64,000 nucleotides of DNA from Syntrophobacterales bacterium (GTDB taxonomy: Bacteria; Desulfobacterota; BSN033; WVXP01; G020346125). Position 1 is the stretch's first letter. Each line of letters opens with the position of its first letter. The stretch covers positions 1,208,094 to 1,272,093 of the forward strand of contig CP070774.1 of the NCBI GenBank assembly GCA_020346125.1, written 5' to 3'. The position numbers and the translations under genes were made by a program. Shown here in pieces: positions 46,166 to 53,078 of the stretch. The notes under the pieces were generated by a model, which was not told the DNA's origin, did no database searches, and saw only the letters and a list, made by a program, of their open reading frames with translations.

Positions 46166-46239
46166 ACAAAAAAACCTTATCTTTTTAGAGTAATAATGGT
46201 TATTCCTTTCGGTTGCCTTCATTATTGAAGGGGGTGCAA

Positions 46240-46845
46240 ATGGATAGGGCATTTTCGGAAGCTATTGGATTGGAGGTTCCCAGGGATTGTCTATTGATCT
46301 CCGTTGGACTTCCCGGAAGTTGGAAGAGCCCAGTCACCGAGGAAATCGCCAGAATGAAGGGGCATAAAATCCTGAGGTCGGATTTCATCCGCCGGGAAGT
46401 CTTGGAGGGGAAGGACATCTTCGATGAGAAGGTTGCCTCCAACCCGGACAATAGGAGGAGGGTATATGGGGAGATGTTCAAGCGGGCGGAGGCGATGTTG
46501 AAAGGGGGAACAGGGGGACTGATTTTGGATGCCACCTTCTTCACCCAGGAGTTGAGATCGAGGGCCGCAAAACTGGCCCATGAAGCTTCAAAGCCACTGG
46601 TGATTGCCGAATGCGTCTGCACGGAGAAGGCTTCCATCCGGCGTATCTTAAAGAGGACGAAGGAGAACTATGAGTCCAACGCCTTGACCCGGCAGGCCTA
46701 CCTGAATAACAAGAAGATCTTTGAACCGGTAGATATAGACGAGCTCAAGCGAAATTACAGGGATCTCTCCATCACTCAGTTGGCAATCGATACGGAGTTC
46801 GATGATCAACCCCGCTGGCGCGTAACCACCATCAAAAAAAGATAG
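46240..46845 (+). CDS. P-loop kinase-like protein (COG0645 type)
   Basis: 201 residues from ATG 46240, with AAGGGGG upstream. It resembles the small AAA/kinase domain often fused to an APH-like domain. The Walker A region reads GLPGSWKSPVTEEIA; tryptophan replaces the usual glycine before the lysine, so nucleotide binding may be altered. The pattern ILRSDFIRREVL and GLILDATFFTQELRSRA follows the family. It lies 9 bases before the APH-like gene, so the two parts of the usual fusion are separate genes here, with the kinase first. Function unknown. Confidence 0.72.
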   Translation: MDRAFSEAIGLEVPRDCLLISVGLPGSWKSPVTEEIARMKGHKILRSDFIRREVLEGKDIFDEKVASNPDNRRRVYGEMFKRAEAMLKGGTGGLILDATFFTQELRSRAAKLAHEASKPLVIAECVCTEKASIRRILKRTKENYESNALTRQAYLNNKKIFEPVDIDELKRNYRDLSITQLAIDTEFDDQPRWRVTTIKKR

Positions 46846-46854
46846 GGCCCCGAT

Positions 46855-47874
46855 ATGGATTTACAAGCCCTCCAGCAGGCTCTGTTAAACCCGGCCATGT
46901 ACCCCGAACGCCCGAGAAAAGTCGAATTTTCAGAAACACACATCTCCTTACTCTTCTTTACAGAAAATCACGTATATAAGGTGAAGAAGCCCGTTGATTT
47001 TGGCTTCCTAGACTTCACGGATCTTGAAAAACGTAAATTTTACTGCCATCAGGAGGTAGAGCTCAACAGGCGTTTATCTGACGATGTGTATATAGGGGTG
47101 GTTGAAATATCGGAAGAGGATGGGGACATCTCCCTCGATGGGAGAGGGGAGGTCATCGAGTATGCCGTTAAGATGAGGAGGATTTCAGAAGATCTATTGA
47201 TGAGTCGGCTCATTGAAGAGGGGAAGGTAACTGAGCACATGATCGCAAGGGTAGCCGAAAAGCTGGCTGCCTTCTACCGGGCAGCCGAGACCAATGAGGA
47301 GATAAGGAGTTATGGCAAGGCCGAGCGGATCCTGCAGGATACGGATGAGAACTTCTATCAAACTCGTACCTATATCGGGCTTACCATTTCCCGTAATGAC
47401 TTCGAAGCTATTGAAAGGACAACCAATGACTTCTTAAGGGAGAAACGGGCCTCCTTCGAACGAAGGATTGAAGAGGGGAAGGTCAGGGACTGTCACGGAG
47501 ATCTCCGATCGGAGCATATCTACCTGGAGGATGAGATCCTCATCATCGATTGCATTGAATTCAACCAAAGGTTTCGATATACAGATGTTGCAGCAGATAT
47601 CGGCTTCTTGGCCATGGATTTGGATTATCGGGGGAGGAGGGATCTATCACAGTATCTCATCGATTCGTATATTCGCATGAGCGGGGATGGGGACCTCCCT
47701 GAAGTCCTCGATTTTTACAAATGCTACCGGGCTTATGTGAGGGGAAAAGTGGAGAGTTTTAGGCTTGATGATCCAAACATCTCCCCTGGTGAGAAGAATG
47801 AAGCATTGAGTAGAGCTCGCCGGTTCTTTCGCCTCTCCAATGGCTATGCCGTGGATTTACGGGACAGCGGCTGA
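46855..47874 (+). CDS. Aminoglycoside phosphotransferase-like kinase (COG2187 type)
   Basis: 339 residues. The fold is that of APH/choline kinases: VYKVKKPVDFGFLDFTDLEKRKFYC in the N-lobe with the ATP-binding lysine, VRDCHGDLRSEHIYL as the catalytic loop, and ILIIDCIEFNQRFRYTDVAADIGFLAMDL carrying the metal aspartate. This belongs to a widespread group whose substrate is not known; true aminoglycoside resistance should not be assumed. The catalytic loop has histidine where APHs have asparagine. It is paired with the P-loop gene before it. Confidence 0.78.
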   Translation: MDLQALQQALLNPAMYPERPRKVEFSETHISLLFFTENHVYKVKKPVDFGFLDFTDLEKRKFYCHQEVELNRRLSDDVYIGVVEISEEDGDISLDGRGEVIEYAVKMRRISEDLLMSRLIEEGKVTEHMIARVAEKLAAFYRAAETNEEIRSYGKAERILQDTDENFYQTRTYIGLTISRNDFEAIERTTNDFLREKRASFERRIEEGKVRDCHGDLRSEHIYLEDEILIIDCIEFNQRFRYTDVAADIGFLAMDLDYRGRRDLSQYLIDSYIRMSGDGDLPEVLDFYKCYRAYVRGKVESFRLDDPNISPGEKNEALSRARRFFRLSNGYAVDLRDSG

Positions 47875-48975: not shown

Positions 48976-49581
48976 TCACCCCTGTCCGCCGGATAGGTCC
49001 GTCTTTTCCTTGAGCTGCCTCCACGTGTAGTGGATGCGTTGAATAACGGTGATATGGGTGAATACGGCCAGAATCCAGAGAATGGGCACCATCAGGTCAA
49101 AGAGAGCTCCCACCGCGAGGAGCACTATCCTCTCCGGCCTCTCCAAGAGGCCGACGGTGCACTTTTCGATCACTCCTTCCGCCCTGGCTCGGACATAGGG
49201 AACCAGTGCCGTGCCGATAAGGACCACTGAGGTCAAGACAATTATACTGGTTGACCCCGCTCGCGCATAGAAGAGGAGAATTCCCAGGAGCACAATCAGA
49301 TCGGAATAGCGGTCCATTACCGAGTCGAAGAAAGCGCCAAAAGGAGTGGCCCTCCCCTGATTCCTTGCCATCGCCCCATCCATGAGATCACAGAGGCCCG
49401 CGCCCAGGATGGCTAAACCTCCCCCCTTCGAGTATCCGATCGCCAACAGAAAAGCAGCGCCGGCATTGAGGATAAACCCTGAGAAGGTAAGGAGATTTGG
49501 GTTGACGTTTTTCCCCAGCAAGTATTTGGCCACCTTGTAGACATAGGGATCGAGTCTATGGCCGATTTTAGAGCTGATCAT
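48976..49581 (-). CDS. CDP-alcohol phosphatidyltransferase family protein
   Basis: 201 residues with about five or six membrane helices. The catalytic motif DG-x2-AR-x8-G-x3-D-x3-D is complete: DLMDGAMARNQGRATPFGAFFDSVMDRYSD region. Such enzymes join an alcohol (inositol phosphate, glycerol phosphate or other) to CDP-diacylglycerol in the inner membrane. Which alcohol is not clear by eye. It is convergent with ispG (3 bases apart), and a 282-base gap without visible genes separates it from kdsC. Confidence 0.88.
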   Translation of the reverse strand: MISSKIGHRLDPYVYKVAKYLLGKNVNPNLLTFSGFILNAGAAFLLAIGYSKGGGLAILGAGLCDLMDGAMARNQGRATPFGAFFDSVMDRYSDLIVLLGILLFYARAGSTSIIVLTSVVLIGTALVPYVRARAEGVIEKCTVGLLERPERIVLLAVGALFDLMVPILWILAVFTHITVIQRIHYTWRQLKEKTDLSGGQG

Positions 49582-49863: not shown

Positions 49864-50424
49864 TCATGATCTCTTCTCTTTGCTCGACGCAAATAGGCCG
49901 TATACTGCCTCTTTCTGTCCTCTCAGTTCCAGTAACCAGTCAATAACCTCGCGAACGGCACCATATCCACCGGGAGCTTGAGTTACGTAAATACTATGTT
50001 CCTTCACCTCAGGAGAAGCATTATGTACCGCAATCGGCAAGCCAACCCGTTTCATCACGGGGAGGTCAAGTACATCATCCCCCACGTAGGCGACCTGAGA
50101 CACATCCAGAGCGTGCTTTTCAAGTAACAAGTTCAAAGCGTCCTCTTTATAGAAATAACCCTGACAAACTTCATCTATTCCCAGTTCTTCCGCGCGACGG
50201 TAAACAGCGGCAGACTCTCGACCGGTAATGATTCCCACCTTCAGCCCCGCTGTCCGCGCCAAGGTCACGCCCATGCCGTCTCTAACATCAAATCTCTTGG
50301 CCTCGCCTTTTTCCTCTATCAGAATAATGCCGCCGTCCGTCATGACACCATCTACGTCAAAGAGCAACAGATGTAAGCCAACGGCCCGTCGTTTGATCTC
50401 ATCCTGTTCCAGCTCCAGCATCAT
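49864..50424 (-). CDS. kdsC: Kdo-8-phosphate phosphatase
   Basis: About 186 residues from the tandem ATG at 50424/50421, behind AGGGGG; the frame extends 16 codons further into the upstream gene. KdsC is a C0-type HAD that removes phosphate from Kdo-8-phosphate. FDVDGVMTDGGI holds the nucleophile, GIITGRES the second motif, and VGDDVLDLPVM the metal aspartates. It is the last gene of the kdsB-kdsA-X-kdsC operon, 7 bases after the transaldolase-CBS gene. Confidence 0.94.
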   Translation of the reverse strand: MMLELEQDEIKRRAVGLHLLLFDVDGVMTDGGIILIEEKGEAKRFDVRDGMGVTLARTAGLKVGIITGRESAAVYRRAEELGIDEVCQGYFYKEDALNLLLEKHALDVSQVAYVGDDVLDLPVMKRVGLPIAVHNASPEVKEHSIYVTQAPGGYGAVREVIDWLLELRGQKEAVYGLFASSKEKRS

Positions 50425-50431
50425 ATTCCCC

Positions 50432-51454
50432 CTAATCAACCAAACCATCGCGGAGCAAGTCTTGGACATCAATCATTCCCACTGGTTTTTCCTGGACGTC
50501 CACCACGACAAGGTTATCGACCTTAGCCTGGCGCATGAGTTTCACCGCATCTTGTAAGATAGTTTCTTCGGGCAAACATTTTGGATTTCGCGACATAAGA
50601 CGGGCCACTTTCTCGTGGGCCAGATCCTTATGGTCAATCGCACGGCGCAAATCGCCGTCGGTTAGTATGCCGATAAGTCGCCCTTCCTCATTTACCACGG
50701 AGACGGCCCCGAGCTTCGACTTTGTCATCTCGATTGCAGCCTCTGCTATTGTAGCATTCTCGGTAACAATCGGGTTCTCAGGTCGGATGAACTGGCGCAC
50801 GGTGTATGTGGTCAGCTTGGTATGGATGCTGAAGTCGCTGATGCCGTGACCGGTGAGCACATTGTCAGATAGGATCCTAAGGACCTTCCACGGAAAAGTG
50901 ATCGCATGCGCGCCGCAGAGGATAGCCATGCGCACGTGGTCAAGATGGCGTACCGAAGACACCATGACCTTAGCAGGATACCGATATCGCTCCACCATGT
51001 TAACCACTTGTTCGATCAGGGCAAAGGAATCATGTCCTTGATCGTGGAGACGGCCTACCAGAGGACAGATGTAGCTTGCTCCTGATGCTGCAGCCAGATA
51101 TGCCTGGGTGAGGGTATAAACCAAATGAATATTAGTCTTGTATCCCCCTTGAGTTAGGCGACAGGCTGCCTTGAGCCCCTCGTTAGTGACCGGGATTTTG
51201 AAGACTGGTGGTCTTGCGAGCCCTGGCAATGCGGATAAGCGTTCGGCCTCGGCGAGGATTTGTGAATACGTTTCCCCCAAGGCCTCAACGTGCAACTGGT
51301 TAGCAATCTTCGATAATTCTACAATGGTGCTGTCCACGTCTTTGATGCCATGTTGATGCATAAAAGTCGGCGTCGTCGTAATTCCCTCCATAAAACCAAA
51401 CTCGGCTGCGGCCTTGATTTCATCGAAGTCTACTGAGTCAATGAAGAGCTCCAT
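50432..51454 (-). CDS. Transaldolase/F6P-aldolase-like enzyme fused to KdsD-type CBS pair
   Basis: 340 residues. Residues 1-215 match the small transaldolase/fructose-6-phosphate aldolase (TalC/FSA) barrel: D6 in LFIDSVD, K86 in FKIPVT as Schiff-base lysine, R135, and S166 in MVSS align with FSA positions; T28 replaces the FSA asparagine. Residues about 216-340 are two CBS motifs with GILTDGDLRRAI and a C-terminus VQDLLRDGLVD, which is how KdsD/KpsF isomerases end. The SIS isomerase domain of KdsD is absent. It lies 2 bases after kdsA and 7 before kdsC, in the slot usually held by kdsD. Role inferred: supply of arabinose 5-phosphate by aldol chemistry, or regulation of sugar phosphate flow into Kdo. 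Confidence 0.85.
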   Translation of the reverse strand: MELFIDSVDFDEIKAAAEFGFMEGITTTPTFMHQHGIKDVDSTIVELSKIANQLHVEALGETYSQILAEAERLSALPGLARPPVFKIPVTNEGLKAACRLTQGGYKTNIHLVYTLTQAYLAAASGASYICPLVGRLHDQGHDSFALIEQVVNMVERYRYPAKVMVSSVRHLDHVRMAILCGAHAITFPWKVLRILSDNVLTGHGISDFSIHTKLTTYTVRQFIRPENPIVTENATIAEAAIEMTKSKLGAVSVVNEEGRLIGILTDGDLRRAIDHKDLAHEKVARLMSRNPKCLPEETILQDAVKLMRQAKVDNLVVVDVQEKPVGMIDVQDLLRDGLVD

Positions 51455-51456
51455 GA

Positions 51457-52296
51457 TTACACCTCTTTTACGATGGAGTTAATCTCGAGGAGAGGTTTAA
51501 GGTACTCCTCGAGGTCACTAAGATACATTTGGCTCGATGCATCACATTTTGCATCCGGCGGGTTAGGGTGGCATTCAATGAACAGGCCATCCACACCGGC
51601 TGCCACACCTGCGCGTCCCAGAACGGACAGATATTCCCGATTGCCCCCCCGAGGATCAGCACTTGGAATGCCGTACCGGCGTATGGAATGTGTAACGTCA
51701 AAAACAAGCGGATATCCAGTCTGACGCATAATGTGAAAGCTTCGTGGATCAACGATCAGATCGTTGTAGCCAAAGGTGTATCCTCGTTCCGTCACCAGGA
51801 TGCGATGATTTCCCATGCACTCCACTTTCTTGACAGGTTTGGAAATGTTCTCCGGAGCGAGAAACTGACCACGTTTGATATTAATCGCCTTGCCAGTTAG
51901 TGCTACCGCCTCTGTCAAGTCCGTCTGCATGCATAAGTAGGCAGGAATCTGAATCACGTCGAGTACCTGGCCTGCTGTCGGAACTTGTCCAACATAATGA
52001 ACGTCCGACATAATTGGCAAACCAAACGCATGACGGATGCCTTCCAGAATCTTCAAGCCCTCCTCCAGTCCCGGCCCGCGGTAGTGTTCCCTCGCACTCC
52101 GGTTGTCCTTTTGGAACGAACTTTTGAAGATTACTGGTATGTCAAGTCGTCCGCTCACCCGCTCGAGAACTTCAGCAGTGCGTTTCATCACATCATCTTC
52201 TTCGATCACACATGGACCGGAGATCAGAAAAAGTGGAACTTCGCCACACCGTATTCCGCAAATTTCCACGCTTGTCACCTGGCCAATCAGTTTCAT
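51457..52296 (-). CDS. kdsA: Kdo-8-phosphate synthase
   Basis: 279 residues from ATG 52296 behind GAGGA; a TTG four codons upstream is also in frame. KdsA condenses arabinose 5-phosphate with PEP. FLISGPCVIEED has cysteine where E. coli has asparagine, and FDVTHS, FIECHPNP and KCDASSQ give the other metal ligands, so this is the metal-dependent class as in Aquifex. The substrate-binding FKSSFQKDNRSA is present. It sits between kdsB and the transaldolase-CBS gene, 14 bases after kdsB. Confidence 0.95.
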   Translation of the reverse strand: MKLIGQVTSVEICGIRCGEVPLFLISGPCVIEEDDVMKRTAEVLERVSGRLDIPVIFKSSFQKDNRSAREHYRGPGLEEGLKILEGIRHAFGLPIMSDVHYVGQVPTAGQVLDVIQIPAYLCMQTDLTEAVALTGKAINIKRGQFLAPENISKPVKKVECMGNHRILVTERGYTFGYNDLIVDPRSFHIMRQTGYPLVFDVTHSIRRYGIPSADPRGGNREYLSVLGRAGVAAGVDGLFIECHPNPPDAKCDASSQMYLSDLEEYLKPLLEINSIVKEV

Positions 52297-52310
52297 ATCT
52301 ATCCTCAATA

Positions 52311-53078
52311 CTACCCTGATTCTTGCTGTGGTTGTGACGCTAAGATACGGCGCACCTGGGCGAGATCCTCAGCCGTATCCACCGCTATCTGTCGAAACCT
52401 GGTCTTGATGGTATATATGCTGTAACCTGCTTCGAGGAATCGGAGTTGCTCCAGCTTCTCGGCCTGCTCCAATTGACTTGGCGGCAGTGATGCATCGAAC
52501 TCCTCCAACACGTGCCGCCTAAAGCCGTAGATTCCATACTGTGCCCAGAGAGCTGCTCGTTTCGGCCACTCAGCAAGCGGGGCATCGCGCACATGGGGAA
52601 TAGGACTGCGCGAGAAGTACAGCGCACGGCCATCGTTTCCGCATACTACTTTTGCAAGACCCGGGTCAATCCGATCGGAAACCTCGGTAATTCGGAACAC
52701 GGGAGTAACTATATCGGCTCTGTTGTTCTGGAAGCTCCGTACGAGCTCGTCAATCAACTCCGGCTCAACGAGTGGTTGATCTCCCTGAATATTAACAACG
52801 ATCTCGGCATCTATCTTGTTTACAATTGAAGCGATGCGGGCCGTCCCCGAGGGCAGATTGGGGGAGGTCAGTATGACTGCTACTCCCCACTCCCGCACTA
52901 TACGTATCACCTCTTTGCTGTCTGTTGCTACAAGCACACGGTTAATGCTTTGGGCTAAACTGGCGCGCTCGTACACGTGTCGGATCATCGGTTTGCCAGC
53001 TATGTCAGCCAGGACCTTACGCGGTAGTCGAGTGGACTGTAAACGCGCCGGGATAACGGCGACCGCTCTTTTTTCCAT
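52311..53078 (-). CDS. kdsB: CMP-Kdo synthetase
   Basis: 255 residues. KdsB activates Kdo with CTP to CMP-Kdo for lipid A glycosylation. VIPARLQSTRLPRKVLADIAGKPMI is the nucleotide-binding start, VVNIQGDQPLVEPELI the central motif, and ALYFSRSPIPH plus the YGIYGFRR segment follow. It is the first gene of the Kdo operon; AGGTG precedes the ATG. The codon choice of this operon looks different from that of its flanks (more CGC and GCG), a qualitative impression. Confidence 0.95.
   Translation of the reverse strand: MEKRAVAVIPARLQSTRLPRKVLADIAGKPMIRHVYERASLAQSINRVLVATDSKEVIRIVREWGVAVILTSPNLPSGTARIASIVNKIDAEIVVNIQGDQPLVEPELIDELVRSFQNNRADIVTPVFRITEVSDRIDPGLAKVVCGNDGRALYFSRSPIPHVRDAPLAEWPKRAALWAQYGIYGFRRHVLEEFDASLPPSQLEQAEKLEQLRFLEAGYSIYTIKTRFRQIAVDTAEDLAQVRRILASQPQQESG

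Follow-up and report, generated by a model that had tools for sequence, protein, structure and literature searches.

An operon for the synthesis of the endotoxin sugar 3-deoxy-D-manno-octulosonic acid (Kdo) lies in a window of 64,000 nucleotides, the whole stretch of DNA analyzed here, from the genome of a Syntrophobacterales bacterium (Desulfobacterota; contig CP070774.1, positions 1,208,094 to 1,272,093). Between its kdsA and kdsC genes stands a gene for a protein in which a barrel of the transaldolase/fructose-6-phosphate aldolase (FSA) type is fused to a pair of CBS domains. On the comparative evidence given below, we consider it likely that this fusion carries out the first step of Kdo synthesis as an alternative enzyme, providing the neighboring KdsA with arabinose 5-phosphate (A5P) in the place of the A5P isomerase KdsD. 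The features of the locus are as follows:

50432..51454, minus strand: transaldolase/FSA–CBS fusion, 340 amino acids, proposed A5P-forming enzyme replacing KdsD (open reading frame, Pfam, AlphaFold2 model)
50816..51454, minus strand: TAL_FSA alpha/beta barrel, residues 1-213 of the fusion (Pfam, structure match to TalC-type transaldolases)
50450..50800, minus strand: CBS pair, residues 219-335 of the fusion (best match, the CBS pair of arabinose-5-phosphate isomerase, 4o9k)
51197..51199, minus strand: codon of Lys86, the family Schiff-base lysine, in 63/63 homologs (alignment)
51125..51127, minus strand: codon of His110, constant among the fusions where TalC transaldolases have Thr (alignment)
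51457..52308, minus strand: kdsA, of a fusion-linked subclass (KDNRS, LCMQT and SIRRYGIP instead of KANRS, LCRQT and SVQLPG)
52311..53078, minus strand: kdsB, CMP-Kdo synthetase
about 49864..50424, minus strand: kdsC, Kdo 8-phosphate phosphatase (start taken as the first in-frame ATG downstream of the fusion's stop codon; the TTG at 50472 chosen by the open-reading-frame finder would overlap the fusion)

Domain architecture and operon context of the fusion

The gene order is kdsB-kdsA-fusion-kdsC, with gaps of 2 and 7 bases flanking the fusion. A sequence-only reading of this DNA had recognized a TalC/FSA barrel with a CBS pair at 50432-51454, and the coordinates, the strand and the Pfam domains agree with it: TAL_FSA matches residues 3-222 with 118 bits (cut-off 27) and is followed by two CBS domains (88.5 bits), Pfam giving no SIS domain in the protein. 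The residues D6 and K86 and the motifs GILTDGDLRRAI and DLLRDGLV that it had picked out are all present. Its assignment of the gene to a 'kdsD slot' also stands, with the neighbors identified on the same strand and kdsD found directly after kdsA in genomes of the same phylum (e.g., G061:C53 and G025:C19). The window's KdsC scores as an ordinary KdsC, and a genome of the same order (L012) displays the identical gene order with 73-80% identity (68.5% for kdsC). Both domains are present in all 63 aligned homologs, which span several phyla with a mean column identity of 68%; since these homologs keep both domains and the same gene order recurs in L012, a chance architecture is excluded. The AlphaFold model of the fusion, computed from the 63 homologs, has a mean predicted local distance difference test score (pLDDT) of 94.2.

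The CBS pair had been taken for a regulatory module of the KdsD type, and the CBS pair of A5P isomerase is indeed its best match by both profile and fold. The sequence profile of the pair retrieves 4o9k at the top with 99.8 bits, and a structure search with the model of the pair alone again places 4o9k first, with template modeling (TM) scores of 0.90-0.92, other CBS families being fairly close. They are close also in a single-sequence phmmer search, in which 2yzq leads only through summed repeats. A merely generic CBS resemblance is nevertheless disfavored, as A5P isomerase ranks first by profile and by structure. Against the KpsF/KdsD model TIGR00393 the fusion scores 66.6 bits (cut-off 203.7), the match being confined to residues 219-328. 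The ligand of 4o9k is presumably CMP-Kdo. Thus, the fusion resembles KdsD/KpsF/GutQ (TIGR00393) in its position in the kdsA-kdsC operon, in its C-terminal CBS pair with TDGDLRR and in their complementarity at the level of taxa, but it lacks the SIS domain, its catalytic part being an unrelated class I aldolase barrel.

The fusion and KdsD across genomes

The window's genome (G000) is a single contig of 2.07 Mb with a completeness score of 75.9%. A search of it for a SIS-domain KdsD, which the sequence-only reading had put forward as a check, recovered only two GlmS domains and one 192-residue protein that is GmhA by NCBIfam, while the KpsF/KdsD model gave nothing above its cut-off and had the fusion's own CBS pair as its top match. 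We accordingly rejected a hidden KdsD in this genome. The Kdo transferase KdtA is present (PF04413, 201.5 bits), and Kdo or a close analog is therefore used. Elsewhere the genome codes for a canonical TalC (L008; TTNPT, NVTLIF and SPFIGRLDD) and a second transaldolase-like protein; hence, the fusion cannot be taken for the ordinary transaldolase of this cell.

In the window's phylum, the full fusion occurs in 6 of 297 genomes, and KdsD scores above its cut-off in none of these six, as against 264 of the 291 others (Fisher test, 1.2e-6; about 5e-8 among KdsA-positive genomes only). The order to which genome G303 belongs has named Cytophagales among its members; the 157 genomes analyzed from it divide into 54 with the fusion only, 75 with KdsD only, 2 with both and 26 with neither (Fisher test, p = 1.3e-19). 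Because related genomes are not independent, all these p values make the events look more numerous than they are; even so, two phyla show the pattern. Direct inspection of 56 fusion genomes found a full KdsD in nine and a SIS-only form in one more. In seven of the nine the KdsD gene adjoins its own kdsC, and there it is probably part of a housekeeping cluster of its own. Among cultured bacteria with the fusion only is Thermonema rossianum DSM 10300. We also considered the fusion as the mark of a second, accessory Kdo system, which is plausible for the seven proteobacterial genomes with both but not for most. Fusion genomes thus mostly lack KdsD, instead of constantly co-occurring with it, and the absence of KdsD from the window's genome, the near-exclusivity over hundreds of genomes and the linkage to kdsA across phyla give strong support to the earlier proposal that KdsD has been replaced by a non-ortholog.

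As to that linkage, a pattern scan with one genome per species yielded at least 532 related stretches, and among the 80 matches listed are Bacteroidota, Gammaproteobacteria, Rhodospirillales, desulfobacterial and deltaproteobacterial metagenome-assembled genomes (MAGs), Nitrospira, Ignavibacteriales and Candidatus Scalindua. Where more than 1.3 kb of flank was available on both sides (65 loci), kdsA adjoins the fusion on the same strand in 49 (47 upstream and 2 downstream), and a KdsC-like gene follows it in 39. Further Kdo genes neighbor the fusion in other phyla, namely KdsB and two KdtA in L053 and KdtA in L041. Two loci (L107:2857-5130 and L179:10409-12684) have an aminotransferase and an iron-containing alcohol dehydrogenase beside the kdsA-fusion pair, with kdsB and a gene for a Kdo transferase following in L179; these two enzymes resemble KdnA/KdnB of 8-amino-Kdo synthesis. 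In three loci (L045:7029-7757, L053:7032-7748 and L183:10588-11316), the fusion is followed by divergent KdsC-like HAD proteins of about 240 amino acids that score far under the KdsC cut-offs. Many outer-membrane bacteria in several phyla seem, from these gene contents, to have swapped KdsD for an unrelated transaldolase-like enzyme with a KdsD-like control domain.

Active site and predicted chemistry

The barrel matches the structures of TalC-type transaldolases (1vpx and 3r8r; TM score to the target about 0.93, 31-33% identity). With these enzymes (Bacillus subtilis 3r8r, Thermotoga maritima 1vpx and Thermoplasma acidophilum 3s0c) the fusion shares the fold, Lys86, Asp6, Glu57, Asn108 and the phosphate-site residues Arg135, Ser167 and Arg169, all of them invariant in the 63 fusions. 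It differs from them in the extra CBS pair and in donor-site changes that are fixed in 63/63 (Asn28 to Thr, Thr110 to His and Phe132 to Leu) or nearly so (Ser130 to Cys in 61/63). It also forms its own clade: in a tree of the barrel, the 63 fusions are split from 25 TalC proteins with 100/100 support and long stems of 1.54 and 2.43 changes per site, in an analysis whose bootstrap had not fully settled. FSA (1l6w) likewise has the fold and the lysine in common with the fusion, but the identity in the structural match is about 24-26% and the fusion has Leu at the position of Tyr131; position 132 is Tyr in FSA and Phe in transaldolases. The fusion is hence a member of the transaldolase/FSA family PF00923, with a score above the cut-off and a barrel bearing the Schiff-base lysine and Asp6, but it scores below the cut-off of the FSA/TalC equivalog TIGR00875 (149.5 versus 245.95 bits) and has Thr, His and Leu where that group has the donor-site residues Asn28 (of TTNP), Thr110 and Phe/Tyr132. 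Judged by its residues, it still has the lysine and the phosphate-binding residues typical of a class I sugar-phosphate aldolase, whereas the dihydroxyacetone pocket is gone; because of these donor-site changes, we infer that it is neither a transaldolase nor an FSA.

It may instead, though we put this at somewhat less than an even chance, belong to a separate route into Kdo. A two-gene module found in several phyla, consisting of a particular KdsA subclass and a CBS-controlled Schiff-base enzyme with the transaldolase fold, would there convert a pentose phosphate to A5P by epimerization or isomerization, an activity that to our knowledge has no precedent in this fold. Lys86 would form a Schiff base with the sugar phosphate, and ribose 5-phosphate or ribulose 5-phosphate would be turned into A5P inside the active site. 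This could occur by transfer of the C2 proton via an imine at Lys86, His110 and Glu57 serving as acid and base, or by retro-aldol and aldol steps at C2-C3, in which ribose 5-phosphate would be cleaved and the parts rejoined as A5P without free glycolaldehyde. The A5P might then be handed directly to the adapted KdsA, and the CBS pair would give feedback, probably by CMP-Kdo or a nucleotide. The FSA reaction cited in the sequence-only reading is a known one: Escherichia coli FsaA condenses glycolaldehyde with glyceraldehyde 3-phosphate to yield A5P, both in vitro and in vivo, and a reported by-product of TalB F178Y is ribose 5-phosphate (PMC9947464). One scaffold can therefore build both C2 epimers. 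If the fusion does supply A5P, we favor conversion of a pentose 5-phosphate within the site, for which we see a little less than an even chance, over a net aldol addition of glycolaldehyde, which we rate distinctly lower.

The latter, with an FSA-like aldolase joining free glycolaldehyde and glyceraldehyde 3-phosphate, is a variant of the A5P-supplying reading and not exclusive of it. The FsaA precedent speaks for it, as do the retained Lys, Asp and phosphate-binding residues, and a two-carbon donor would fit the loss of the dihydroxyacetone-site residues. However, Leu occupies in 63/63 fusions the position where FSA has Tyr and transaldolase Phe, the operon is without a glycolaldehyde-producing gene, and free glycolaldehyde is normally scarce. 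Overall, we regard this variant as rather unlikely.

The partner KdsA

The adjacent kdsA belongs to an unusual subclass, which had gone unnoticed in the sequence-only reading and is new here. Across phyla, fusion-linked KdsA proteins have at least 59% identity to the window's KdsA, versus 42-53% for those in a KdsD setting or ordinary second copies. In a KdsA tree, the 62 fusion-linked rows fall on one side of a single branch (100/99 support, stem 1.14), the comparison here and in the motifs being with only nine ordinary KdsA. In 62/62 the Ala of KANRS has become Asp, the equivalent of Aquifex R106 is Met instead of Arg, and the SVQLPG loop has Arg for Gln together with a one-residue insertion; ordinary KdsA proteins have the Ala of KANRS and the R106-equivalent Arg in 9/9. 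In KdsA structures, the altered positions border the A5P site, Aquifex R106 acting at the A5P phosphate. A PDB chain with Gly at the R106 position, common to five PDB entries, was confirmed by sequence. Either the KdsA partner has adapted to its supplier, or its substrate has changed.

The second of these options amounts to a product switch, in which the fusion and its KdsA subclass would make another aldose phosphate and a Kdo-like ulosonic acid other than Kdo, which KdsB would then activate and KdtA transfer. Consistent with it are the invariant KdsA changes in the 62 rows (the Asp in KANRS, the Met at the R106 position and the altered SVQLPG loop), the grouping of fusion-linked KdsA as one clade across phyla even where the same genome has an ordinary KdsA, and the divergence of many linked KdsC-like phosphatases. 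Yet the window's own KdsA passes the KdsA equivalog cut-off (318.8 bits versus 314 for TIGR01362) and retains the Asn-Arg-Ser of KANRS, and the window's KdsC is ordinary. Moreover, three genomes (f4) have the fusion without KdsD, and the two of them that were examined (G001 and G077; loci L145, L146 and L180) carry both kinds of KdsA, the second copy grouping with ordinary KdsA and adjoining a lipid A acyltransferase in G077 and LptC and LptA in G001. This ordinary KdsA would need A5P with KdsD absent, which argues against a changed product, and we hold a switch to be improbable.

Weighing an A5P-supplying role

Several observations nonetheless count against the fusion as the replacement of KdsD. 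The loss around the A5P site of residues invariant in ordinary KdsA means that the partner's substrate may differ, and the A5P-forming activity of the fusion is itself a prediction from sequence. Five near-complete, KdsA-positive genomes (G167, G081, G258, G173 and G082), one of them (G167) a 99% complete genome from the window's own genus, have neither KdsD nor the fusion; their SIS domains resemble GlmS and GmhA, with one additional 327-residue SIS protein in G082. A further source of A5P can therefore exist. The window's genome, besides being incomplete and masked in some stretches, has GlmS, a relative of the eukaryotic GFATs, which have A5P isomerase activity and complement an A5P isomerase mutant (PMC11301363). 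The GFATs and the SIS-only A5P isomerases of the Bacteroides fragilis type are, like the proposed enzyme, alternative providers of A5P in nature (PMC11301363), but they are SIS-fold enzymes, unlike the fusion.

Alternatively, the fusion could be a CBS-regulated transaldolase that only tunes the pentose-phosphate supply to Kdo synthesis, A5P coming from GlmS or another enzyme. It shares its fold and Schiff-base lysine with TalC, and both the complementation by GFATs and the KdsA-positive genomes without KdsD or fusion would accord with such a role. However, the window's genome already has a canonical TalC and a transaldolase-like protein, the donor-site residues of the fusion are changed, and exclusion of KdsD is not expected of a tuner. 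Further, GlmS is near-universal, and E. coli has it. The E. coli strain TCM15, in which kdsD and gutQ are deleted, still needs A5P, along with glucose 6-phosphate (PMC11301363). We therefore view such a tuner as quite improbable. That KdsD is missing merely through genome incompleteness is the least credible alternative, for although the window's genome is incomplete, many records are MAGs and some stretches are masked, the exclusivity extends over 157 and 297 genomes (p values of 1e-19 and 1e-6), the fusion genomes include some of 93-95% completeness, and most of the remaining genomes in these sets do have KdsD.

Implications and other genes of the window

In the open-licence literature searched, we found no description of a transaldolase–CBS protein in Kdo synthesis. 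KdsD is regarded as catalyzing the first, committed reaction of this pathway and is considered an antibacterial target. If the fusion does take its place, this would explain how many Gram-negative lineages without a recognizable KdsD produce Kdo, would call for the reannotation of very many proteins now labeled simply 'transaldolase', and would constitute a striking swap of catalytic domains around a shared regulatory domain. It also makes it possible to ask by experiment if an isomerase or epimerase has arisen on the transaldolase scaffold, and what made the KdsA partner change alongside.

An Rfam scan of the window found nothing, and the fusion had no match in the plasmid collection. Elsewhere in the window, at 46213-47874, an AAA_33 kinase-like gene is followed by a gene for a weakly APH-like phosphotransferase, neither of which matches NCBIfam. 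Adjoining the Kdo operon, at 48976-49581, lies a gene for a CDP-alcohol phosphotransferase closest to archaetidylinositol/phosphatidylinositol phosphate synthases.
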